A DNA stretch of 64,000 nt from an uncultured bacterium (GTDB lineage Bacteria; Bacteroidota; Bacteroidia; Sphingobacteriales; Sphingobacteriaceae), in the NCBI GenBank assembly GCA_903828245.1, contig CAIKLP010000081.1, positions 1-64,000 on the forward strand. Reading direction: 5' to 3'. The translations under genes and the position numbers were made by a program. Of the stretch, positions 30,151-33,557 are shown piece by piece (the stretch's first letter is position 1; every line of letters begins with the position of its first letter). Below the pieces are notes generated by a model that saw only the letters and a list, made by a program, of their open reading frames with translations, was not told the DNA's origin and made no database searches.

Positions 30151-30187
30151 ATAAAAAGCCCCAATATTGATTGGGGCTTTTTTATTT
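30151..30187 (-). terminator. intrinsic terminator of metK
   Basis: AAAGCCCCAAT, loop ATTG, ATTGGGGCTTT, with a T-run on both strands. It lies between the metK stop (30200) and the start of the S9 peptidase gene. Confidence 0.85.
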
Positions 30188-30199
30188 TGTTACTGAAAA

Positions 30200-31453
30200 T
30201 TATTTCAATTTGAATTCTTTTTTCACTTTGTCTACGAAATCTAATTTCTCCCAAGTGAATAATTCTACTTTCATTTTTTTCACTTTGCCATCGGGCGATT
30301 GAAAGGTTTTAGTAACTGTTTCGTTCTTACGACCCATGTGTCCGTAAGCAGCAGTTTCAGAATACATTGGATTACGCAATTTTAAACGTTGTTCAATTGC
30401 ATATGGGCGCATGTCAAAAATCTTTTCGATTTTCTTTGCAATATCGCCATCGGTTAAAGCCACCTTTGCCGTGCCATATGTATTTACATAAATACCCATT
30501 GGTTTAGCCACGCCAATTGCATAAGAAACTTGTACTAAAATTTCGTCGCAAAGACCTGCTGCAACTACATTTTTTGCAATGTGTCTAGTTGCATAAGCTG
30601 CCGATCTATCTACTTTAGAAGGATCTTTACCAGAAAATGCACCACCACCGTGAGCACCTTTACCACCGTAAGTATCTACGATAATTTTTCTTCCAGTTAA
30701 ACCAGTATCACCGTGTGGTCCACCAATAACAAACTTTCCAGTGGGGTTAATGTGGTATTGAATTTTATTGTTGAATAATGCTTTATACTTAGGGTATTTT
30801 TTCATTACACGTGGAATTAATACTTTGATTAAATCCGCTTTGATTTTCGCAAGCATTTTTTGATCTGCATCGAAATCATCGTGTTGTGTTGAAATTACAA
30901 TAGCGTCAATTCTAACAGGCTTATTGTTATCATCATACTCCAATGTAACTTGTGATTTAGCATCTGGTCTTAAATATTTAATCTCTTTGTTTTCTCTGCG
31001 AATGGCAGCCAATTCAATTAATAATTTATGTGCAATATCTAAAGCTAAAGGCATGTAATCATTGGTTTCGTTGGTTGCATAACCAAACATCATTCCTTGA
31101 TCACCAGCGCCTTGATCTTCTTTCTTCTTACGCTCAACTCCTTGGTTAATGTCTTGTGATTGCTCATGAATAGCAGATAAAATACCACAAGAGTTACTTT
31201 CGAACATGTATTCCGATTTTGTGTAACCAATTTTTTTGATTACTTCTCTTGCAATAGATTGCACATCTAAATAGGCTTTAGATTTAACCTCGCCAGCTAA
31301 TACCACTTGACCAGTAGTTACTAAAGTTTCGCATGCTACTTTAGAAGTAGGGTCGAAAGCTAAAAAATTGTCGATGAGTGCATCTGAAATTTGATCTGCA
31401 ACCTTGTCTGGGTGCCCTTCAGAAACCGATTCTGATGTAAATAAATAAGACAT
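30200..31453 (-). CDS. metK: S-adenosylmethionine synthetase
   Basis: MetK makes SAM from methionine and ATP. The 417-residue product has the family marks: [21 protein letters not shown] at the start, [49 protein letters not shown] and [20 protein letters not shown] chose the ATG at 31453. The frame is open for 40 more codons upstream, but those overlap a promoter and a riboswitch and are not MetK-like. Expression is likely controlled by the SAM-II type riboswitch at 31510-31563, i.e. feedback by the product. Confidence 0.97.
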
Positions 31454-31509
31454 AGTTTTATAAATAAGTTTTAAAAAAAATATCGAAAAGATAGAAATGG
31501 GTAAAAGAT

Positions 31510-31563
31510 CTGTTTTTAGCAATTTTTTTACGTGGTTGCAATCAAGGCAAATTTTCCACTTTT
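31510..31563 (-). ncRNA. SAM-II (SAM-alpha) riboswitch in the metK leader
   Basis: On the minus strand the leader reads GTGG, then AAAATTTGCCTTGATTGCAA, then CCAC, then GTAAAAAAATTGCTAAAA. This order matches the SAM-II consensus I know: a short P1 stem around a GATTTG..C..TTGCA loop, then TAAA and GCTAAAA. P1 is GTGG/CCAC. GCAA of the loop can pair with TTGC in the 3' part, giving the H-type pseudoknot. It begins just downstream of a good promoter and 56 bp upstream of the metK ATG. SAM-II is known mainly in alpha-proteobacteria, upstream of met genes. How it acts here is unclear because no Shine-Dalgarno sequence lies in its 3' part. Confidence 0.8.
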
Positions 31564-31570
31564 CGTAGCA

Positions 31571-31602
31571 CAAAAATAGAATAAATTTTAATATTCATTC
31601 AA
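31571..31602 (-). promoter_or_regulatory. metK promoter candidate
   Basis: On the minus strand TTG (31602-31600), 21 bp, TATTTTTG (31578-31571), a perfect -7 element with a good -33. The predicted start falls just before the riboswitch. Confidence 0.6.
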
Positions 31603-31649
31603 TATTCAAGAAAATTCAGATAATATTGTATCCTATTAATAATAGCTCA

Positions 31650-33557
31650 ATGACCTATCGTTTTCATTCCATTCGTCAGATATGTAAACAATTACTATTA
31701 GTTACCATGCTATATAGTGTTTGTAGGCTGTTATTCTTCGTTTTTAATTTTAGCAGCTTTAGTCAAACTGGAACCGAACAAATACTTGTAGCATTTTTGC
31801 ATGGCATTCGATTTGATTTATCTGCCATTCTATACAGCAACATCCCCTTTATGTTGTTTGCTATATATGCCGATTTTAAGCCAGATAGAAGACCATCATT
31901 TTCAGTTGCAAAAATTTTATTTATTGTAATAAATGCGCTGGCTATTTTTAGCAATATAATCGATGTAAAATTTTATGAATTTCAAAAAAAACGAACCACA
32001 TTCGAATTATTCTCTGGCGAAAATAATATTATAAAATTAATACCTTCTTATATCAGTAGTTATTGGTATCTTATTTTAATCGCCGGGGTTTTAATTTATT
32101 TTTTAATAAAAGGATACGATACAATAAATGCAAATGCACAAAACGAAAAAAAGAAATTTTATATTTTAAAAGCAATCGCTTCTTTTATTTTTTTAGGCAT
32201 TGCCATTATTGGTATGCGCGGAGGCCTTCAAACCAAGCCGCTGCAAATGATTGCCGCATCTTACTACGGTAACCCTAACAACGCATCTTTGGTATTAAAC
32301 ACGCCATTTACCATTTTCCAAAGCATCAACAAAAAACCGTTAAATCGAAAAAAATATTTTTCGGAAACACAAGCAAATAAAATTTTTAATACACAAAGAG
32401 ATTATACTAGCAAATTTGTTTTCGATAAAAAAAATGTAGTTGTAATTATATTAGAAAGTTTCTCTAACGAATACATTGGAACAATGAGTCATCAGAAAAC
32501 TTGCGCTCCATTTTTAGACAGTCTAATAACAGAAAGCTATTTATTGGAACATGCTTTTGCGAACGGCAAAAAATCGAACGAAGCCATGCCAAGTATTTTT
32601 GCTTCTTTGCCCTCTTTGTTAAACGAATCGTATATCAATACCGTTTATCAAAACAACGAATTAAGCAGCCTTCCTAATTTATTAAAAGAGAAAGGGTATT
32701 ATACTGCATTTTACCATGGGGGCATTAATGGTTCTATGAATTTTGATGCTTTTGCTAAAAAAGCAGGCTTTGATAATTATTTTGGCATGAACGAATACCC
32801 TACTATAGCCGATTATGATGGACATTGGGGCATTTATGACGAGCCTTATTTTGAATACGTATCGCATGAGCTGGGCTCTTTACCGAAACCATTTATGGCC
32901 GGAATATTTTCTTTGTCCTCTCATCCACCATACGATTTACCAGAAACTCGTAAAAATGATTTTGCAGAGATGGCAACCGCGAAGCAAAAGAGCTTTAGGT
33001 ATACCGATTTGGCTTTGAAGAAATTTTTTGAATATGCAAAAACTAAAAACTGGTATACCAACACTTTATTTGTAATTGTACCCGACCATACACCAGACGC
33101 CGACGCTATTGCTTATGATACTAAGGTTGCCTATTATCAAATCCCTATTATTTTATTCGACCCTTCGAGTAAAAATTTAATTGGCAAATCACCACAAGTT
33201 GCTCAGCAAATAGATATCATGCCGACGGTATTAGATTACCTACATTTCGATCATCCATTTATGGCTTTTGGAGAAAGCGCCTTGCGAAAAAAACAATACC
33301 CATACGCCATAAACTATAGAGATGGAATCTATCAAACCATTGATTCTACTCATGTTATACAGTTTGCCGAAAATCAAACTTTGGCATTTTATAATTATCA
33401 AATAGATCCCTATTTAAAAAATAATTTGCGCAACAACACGGATGCGAAAGAAAATAAAATGAAAGAATTTACAGCGGCATATATACAACAGTTCAATGAC
33501 GCATTAATAGAAAACAAGTACCAAACAATTGAAGATAAAAATAGTATTCATCATTAA
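31650..33557 (+). CDS. LtaS-like sulfatase-fold phosphoglycerol/phosphoethanolamine transferase
   Basis: The 635-residue inner-membrane protein has about five N-terminal helices (residues ~10-190) and an extracytoplasmic sulfatase-like domain (~260-610). The domain has VVVIILESFSNEYIG (metal ligand Glu), KKSNEAMPSIFASLPSL (where the catalytic Thr/Ser sits in LtaS), FYHGGINGSMNFDAFAKKAGF, GIWD-like GHWGIYDEPYF, and VIVPDHTPD with the late Asp/His ligands. In Firmicutes such enzymes build lipoteichoic acid; in diderms they move phosphoglycerol or phosphoethanolamine to periplasmic glycans or lipids. The start is ATG 31650, with a non-conserved extension to 31626 ignored. It overlaps the next gene by 29 bp. 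Confidence 0.85.
   Translation: MTYRFHSIRQICKQLLLVTMLYSVCRLLFFVFNFSSFSQTGTEQILVAFLHGIRFDLSAILYSNIPFMLFAIYADFKPDRRPSFSVAKILFIVINALAIFSNIIDVKFYEFQKKRTTFELFSGENNIIKLIPSYISSYWYLILIAGVLIYFLIKGYDTINANAQNEKKKFYILKAIASFIFLGIAIIGMRGGLQTKPLQMIAASYYGNPNNASLVLNTPFTIFQSINKKPLNRKKYFSETQANKIFNTQRDYTSKFVFDKKNVVVIILESFSNEYIGTMSHQKTCAPFLDSLITESYLLEHAFANGKKSNEAMPSIFASLPSLLNESYINTVYQNNELSSLPNLLKEKGYYTAFYHGGINGSMNFDAFAKKAGFDNYFGMNEYPTIADYDGHWGIYDEPYFEYVSHELGSLPKPFMAGIFSLSSHPPYDLPETRKNDFAEMATAKQKSFRYTDLALKKFFEYAKTKNWYTNTLFVIVPDHTPDADAIAYDTKVAYYQIPIILFDPSSKNLIGKSPQVAQQIDIMPTVLDYLHFDHPFMAFGESALRKKQYPYAINYRDGIYQTIDSTHVIQFAENQTLAFYNYQIDPYLKNNLRNNTDAKENKMKEFTAAYIQQFNDALIENKYQTIEDKNSIHH

Follow-up and report, generated by a model that had tools for sequence, protein, structure and literature searches.

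The window, as the whole 64,000-nucleotide stretch of DNA analysed is called here, carries metK on its minus strand, preceded by a Bacteroidota promoter and a short structured leader and followed by a strong intrinsic terminator (Table 1). The protein is 68-86% identical to its MetK relatives in named Bacteroidota genomes. All of the elements from which the original prediction was assembled (TTG, N21, TATTTTTG, GTGG, the loop, CCAC, GTAAA, GCTAAAA, GCAA/TTGC, TATC/GATA, T8 and the ATG) lie on the minus strand where it had placed them, with GTAAA reading from 31531 and GCTAAAA from 31520, and 56 bp separate position 31510 from the metK ATG.

That metK has its own promoter is borne out by the related leaders, 119 of 136 of which have a -7 box of the form TAnnTT[T/C]G within 35 nt 5' of P1, as against 5 expected from shuffles; transcription is expected to start near 31567. 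The assignment of metK as the target stands as well: its ORF follows the leader here, and metK is the downstream gene in 119/119 of the related leaders with enough flank. A divergent 643-codon ORF, sulfatase/LTA-synthase-like by appearance, occupies 31626-33557 on the plus strand and begins about 24-50 bp upstream of the metK promoter; a regulatory region common to this ORF and metK is possible.

Table 1. Features at the metK locus, in window coordinates, all on the minus strand.
Feature	Position	Strand	Basis
Bacteroidota promoter: TTG 31602-31600, N21, TATTTTTG 31578-31571 (TAnnTTTG -7 box)	31571..31602	(-)	sequence
SAM-II aptamer	31506..31565	(-)	RF01726 match, 54.9 bits
P1 5' arm, GTGG	31556..31559	(-)	model alignment; compensatory forms in relatives
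Aptamer loop AAAATTTGCCTTGATTGCAA, short, 20 nt	31536..31555	(-)	model alignment; loop-length count
P2 5' strand inside the aptamer loop, TTG and GCAA	31545-31543 and 31539-31536	(-)	P2 outer-pair coupling
P1 3' arm, CCAC	31532..31535	(-)	model alignment; compensatory forms in relatives
A-rich strand, GCTAA (31520-31516) and P2 3' strand	31510..31531	(-)	model alignment; P2 coupling
P2 3' strand pieces, TTGC and CAG	31522-31519 and 31512-31510	(-)	
TTTTAC, complement of GTAAAA (31531-31526) in the A-rich strand	31501..31506	(-)	sequence; folding
Candidate anti-aptamer element TTTCTA-T-CTTTTCG, predicted to pair with CGAAAAGTGGAAA (31565-31553)	31484..31497	(-)	MFE and ensemble folds
metK, S-adenosylmethionine synthetase, 417 aa, ATG 31453-31451	30200..31453	(-)	ORF; MetK relatives
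Strong intrinsic terminator 3' of metK, 13 pairs, -17 kcal/mol	30153..30182	(-)	terminator scan; folding

The SAM-II aptamer and its relatives

A scan of the whole window at the Rfam gathering thresholds gave a single match, to RF01726, SAM-II (long loop), which covers the full model (1-60 of 60) and scores 54.9 bits, over a gathering score of 44, with E-values of 8.7e-8 for the whole window and 6.2e-10 for the genome. The 1.95-Mb genome has no second RF01726 match, and this one lies 5' of metK. The original prediction had named a different model, RF00521 (SAM_alpha), which in a permissive scan of 31300-31800 reached 19.2 bits, below its gathering score of 36; RF01726 matches instead. Judged from its sequence, a SAM-II type aptamer of the Bacteroidota form before metK is confirmed as real and is far beyond chance.

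The covariation that had been anticipated for the stem and the pseudoknot is seen in the related metK leaders. P1 takes the compensatory forms GTGG/CCAC in 94, GAGG/CCTC in 36 and AGGG/CCCT in 1, in a parse that did not require pairing, and is not paired in register in 4 of 135 rows, apparently through parse slips or one-base shifts. The inner part of P2, TTGCAA/TGC, is nearly invariant, and its outer pairs co-vary, with a value of 2.41 for each leader's own partner vs 2.02 for swapped ones (sd 0.07; 0/5000 swaps). The window's P2 has four inner and three outer pairs, one of the outer ones U-G, and its core, ATTTG...TTGCAA...GCTAAA, is intact. Loop length is 19-22 nt in 108 of the 136 leaders and 35-74 nt in 28. 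The long insert from which RF01726 takes its name, and which the model does not demand, is absent from the 20-nt loop of the window copy, though present in many Pedobacter/Mucilaginibacter-like relatives.

RF01726 is matched in 238 of 251 genomes of the window's family, in 71 of 396 of the class and in 34 of 60 mixed relatives, and every congener that has a match scores 54.9 bits. The leaders resemble those of named Pedobacter and Mucilaginibacter records, which points to Sphingobacteriaceae as the probable family. The metK leaders L121, L122, L124-L126, L128-L131 and L133 (Chitinophagaceae-like and others), which belong to close MetK relatives, have no recognisable SAM-II; the switch is therefore absent or lost in neighbouring groups.

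The window copy is thus an ordinary member of a known riboswitch class, in a phylum where that class is common. Corbino et al., 2005 had described the metA element, which is SAM-II, from "the Bacteroides group", with Bacteroides thetaiotaomicron listed (PMC1273637), and Weinberg et al., 2010 gave "SAM-II long loops", RF01726, as a riboswitch in "Bacteroidetes, marine" (PMC2864571). Because of these two reports, the taxonomic part of the finding was already known, and the surprise originally expressed at a SAM-II outside its main home group does not hold, least of all with 238/251 genomes of the family having a match. Nor is the 56-nt gap before the gene odd, as had been suggested, since the distance from GCTAA to the ATG spans 54-160 nt in 118 leaders. 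With RF01726 as published the window copy shares a score over the cut-off, the phylum, the order of the P1/P2 pseudoknot and a place upstream of a SAM-cycle gene (PMC2864571). With RF00521 of the alpha-proteobacteria it shares its architecture and conserved core, with a sub-threshold match, but it falls under that model's gathering score, and its target is metK, without a terminator, where the studied targets of RF00521 are metA/metZ (PMC1273637).

Predicted folding of the downstream segment onto the aptamer

The segment from GCTAA to the ATG contains stretches complementary to the aptamer, and these differ from lineage to lineage: TGCAATC/GATTGCA, CTACTC/GAGTAG and CAGCC/GGCTG are examples, and further downstream complements in relatives are CCCACTCTTGC to GCAAAAGTGG and TCCTCAGAAAAAG to TTTTTTTGAGG. 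In 93 non-redundant leaders, the ensemble energy of aptamer plus downstream segment, calculated with programs that leave out the pseudoknot, gave a mean folding z of -1.52 (Stouffer -14.6) against dinucleotide-shuffled downstream sequence. Pairing with the downstream segment was above that in the shuffles for the loop (0.45 vs 0.28), the A-rich strand (0.50 vs 0.28, with an excess in 74/93 leaders) and the P1 5' arm (0.64 vs 0.52).

When each aptamer was folded with its own downstream segment, z was -1.77 +- 0.14, vs -0.53 +- 0.06 with the downstream segment of another lineage (p 3e-15, a nominal value, as are the others here, in that the leaders share ancestry and their independence is overstated). 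The downstream segment alone gave -0.04, and promoter sequence put in its place gave -0.18. The difference is replicated (own -1.77 vs swapped -0.91, nominal p 2.7e-4) in 30 further, independent leaders, which were drawn from public genome records once the hypothesis was in place. Because of the shared ancestry, it is this swap contrast and its replication that carry the argument. The comparison relies on swaps with composition-corrected folding in preference to two other statistics: swaps of raw energy, in which G+C is a confounder (p was 0.04 for the promoter control as well), and the longest exact match, which differed weakly from swaps (p 0.04) and discriminates weakly because most lineages have the same loop. 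Downstream segment and CDS start, folded alone, are hardly structured (z -0.17 and -0.42). Taken across the class, these comparisons give strong support to an alternative fold that appears to have been selected and that would be mutually exclusive with the SAM-bound pseudoknot. A single universal anti-loop element, TGCAATC, was considered for all leaders and rejected; it is strong in many lineages and absent in the window's genus.

Two groups of leaders have arrangements of their own. In L028, L079 and L067, from the Pedobacter-like genus g13, the downstream sequences TTAGCACTT / TTAGCGCTT / TTGGCAATT match AAGTGCTAA or AATTGCTAA in the P2 3' strand, an alternative pairing that differs from the others and in which the changes are compensating. 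In the Flavobacterium-like leaders L071, L075-L078, L080, L132, L136 and L146, inserted hairpins separate the P1 3' arm from the A-rich strand, and GAGGAAAAATTTG...TGATTGC has a near-perfect complement downstream (GCAATTA, TTTTTCCTC).

The partner of the downstream segment in relatives may also be the loop/P2 strand or the A-rich strand; in the window it is the P1 5' arm. The pairing predicted there between CGAAAAGTGGAAA and the anti-aptamer element has 13 pairs and one bulge and covers that arm with its flanks; its CGAAAAG/CTTTTCG portion has a probability of about 0.99 in an ensemble whose model has no pseudoknots. Such a fold would open P1 and occupy the TATC of the hairpin that the original prediction had drawn. 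The whole leader has a z of -1.58, with 14 of 200 shuffles equally good, and a z of -1.88 against shuffled downstream sequence. The anti-loop element seen most often elsewhere is missing from the window's genus (loop-downstream p about 0.94), and the P1-directed pairing of the window gave a flank p of 0.08. The congener leader L019 has the same fold as the window. CGAAAAG/CTTTTCG is kept in congeners L016, L018 and L020 too, yet there P1 plus a GTAAAAA/TTTTTAC hairpin is preferred; TTTTTAC, with one extra T, replaces the TTTTAC of the window in 3 of the 4 congeners read. The folds are consistent with this genus having a reduced version of the back-fold, directed at P1, for which the window alone gives modest support.

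Proposed control of metK and the output step

The reading that best accounts for the locus, to which we give a probability of about 0.8, is that of a SAM-II riboswitch with its own promoter that controls metK by product feedback, the downstream segment folding back onto the aptamer as the alternative. Transcription from that promoter would yield the SAM-II leader, through which SAM would feed back on metK. Without SAM, the downstream segment would be held in the alternative fold and metK expressed; SAM would lock P1/P2 and set the segment free, as a single strand rich in C/U and poor in G, and metK would be turned down via Rho-dependent termination and/or reduced translation initiation, not by an intrinsic terminator or by masking of a Shine-Dalgarno (SD) sequence. 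Product feedback, as originally proposed, is upheld as the natural interpretation; within it, the OFF direction for metK is likely, the OFF sense having been observed for SAM-II in S. meliloti (PMC9373788).

Rho and translation are choices within this explanation and not its exclusive rivals. Output by Rho, with SAM releasing the segment rich in C/U and poor in G and Rho ending transcription ahead of metK or within its first part, is plausible at somewhat under even odds. It fits the lack of an intrinsic terminator and the behaviour of the segment, of which positions -54 to -31 are freer when the aptamer is locked (unpaired about 0.54 vs 0.37) and in which C exceeds G in 134/136 leaders; riboswitches with Rho-linked output are known in other bacteria, going by works cited in PMC9373788. 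The C-richness is, however, not independent evidence for Rho, because complementarity to the aptamer's G-rich half accounts for part of it, and in the window the segment is rich in U, with C at just 10 of 62 nucleotides.

Output at translation, with the released segment folding over the start region and lowering initiation without SD masking, can be advanced only tentatively: locking the aptamer makes the region from -15 to +8 a little less accessible (0.505 vs 0.542, p 1e-4), but this effect is very small, and downstream segment and CDS alone are hardly more structured than shuffles. SD pairing is hardly used in Bacteroidota, and an SD-like sequence lies within 20 nt of the ATG in just 2 of 136 leaders and is not seen there in the window. 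A platform that masks an SD sequence is rejected on that count, in agreement with the doubt voiced in the original prediction.

That prediction had offered instead a terminator at 31473-31493, made of TATC (31493-31490), GATA (31484-31481) and T8 (31480-31473), and intrinsic termination at this site is improbable. The T8 does come after the hairpin, and likewise after the longer anti-P1 stem in this genus. The hairpin is worth -0.8 kcal/mol, however, and the terminator scan gave nothing there while detecting the -17 kcal/mol terminator after metK; a better partner than GATA for the TATC is the 5' side of the aptamer itself; the hairpin is not conserved across the family, and hairpins of <= -6 kcal/mol before a T-run occur in 3/136 related leaders. 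The longer anti-P1 stem would form without SAM, which is the wrong sense for feedback on metK. The hairpin was accordingly dropped as a terminator.

That the aptamer is degenerate or has changed its ligand and no longer senses SAM is very improbable: the window has the loop GGAAAATTTG where the family's commonest form is GGATCGATTTG, and a U-G among its outer P2 pairs, but the same A is found in many leaders of other families (GGAAAAATTTG), all matching congeners have the same score, the core elements ATTTG, TTGCAA and GCTAAA are intact and metK is still the target.

Beyond the feedback riboswitch proposed for this locus, the SAM-II leaders of Bacteroidota might share a platform of their own, with a lineage-specific, co-evolving back-fold from which SAM would release a strand rich in C and poor in G, making it accessible to Rho (or lowering expression in some other way), without intrinsic terminator or SD sequence; as a statement about the whole phylum this is doubtful.

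Relation to other SAM riboswitches

The output of alpha- and beta-proteobacterial SAM-II is most often a terminator (PMC2258182). The S. meliloti metA and metZ riboswitches, whose predicted outputs are SD masking (metA) and an intrinsic terminator (metZ), have OFF logic and alternative folds in common with the reading given here, but neither of those outputs is seen in the window (PMC9373788). In the literature examined, no description of the expression platform of a Bacteroidota SAM-II was found, nor was any mention of SAM-II in published Bacteroides transcriptome work.

A SAM-I riboswitch (RF00162, 72.7 bits) is present in the same genome, at G000:C82:84705-84803 (+) (leader L201), before an ORF identified by its sequence as a metH-like methionine synthase. 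It shares its ligand with SAM-II, though its fold is unrelated and its target gene different. The two classes thus appear to be divided here, SAM-I serving methionine synthesis (metH) and SAM-II SAM synthesis (metK). Of the 34 relatives that have SAM-II, 31 have a SAM-I match too; when the collected loci were searched for SAM-I core motifs, none was found. Barrick and Breaker, 2007 had not encountered the two classes together in any species (PMC2258182), and no later report of the co-occurrence or of such a split was found in the literature examined; routine co-occurrence in one genome updates the 2007 statement.

The new element is a hint, drawn from comparisons among leaders, that the sequence separating the aptamer from metK evolved so as to pair back onto the aptamer. 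Its potential importance lies in the output, that is, in how riboswitches act where SD sequences are hardly used. The comparative result names specific bases that would be expected to pair without SAM, which makes the question testable on a short leader.
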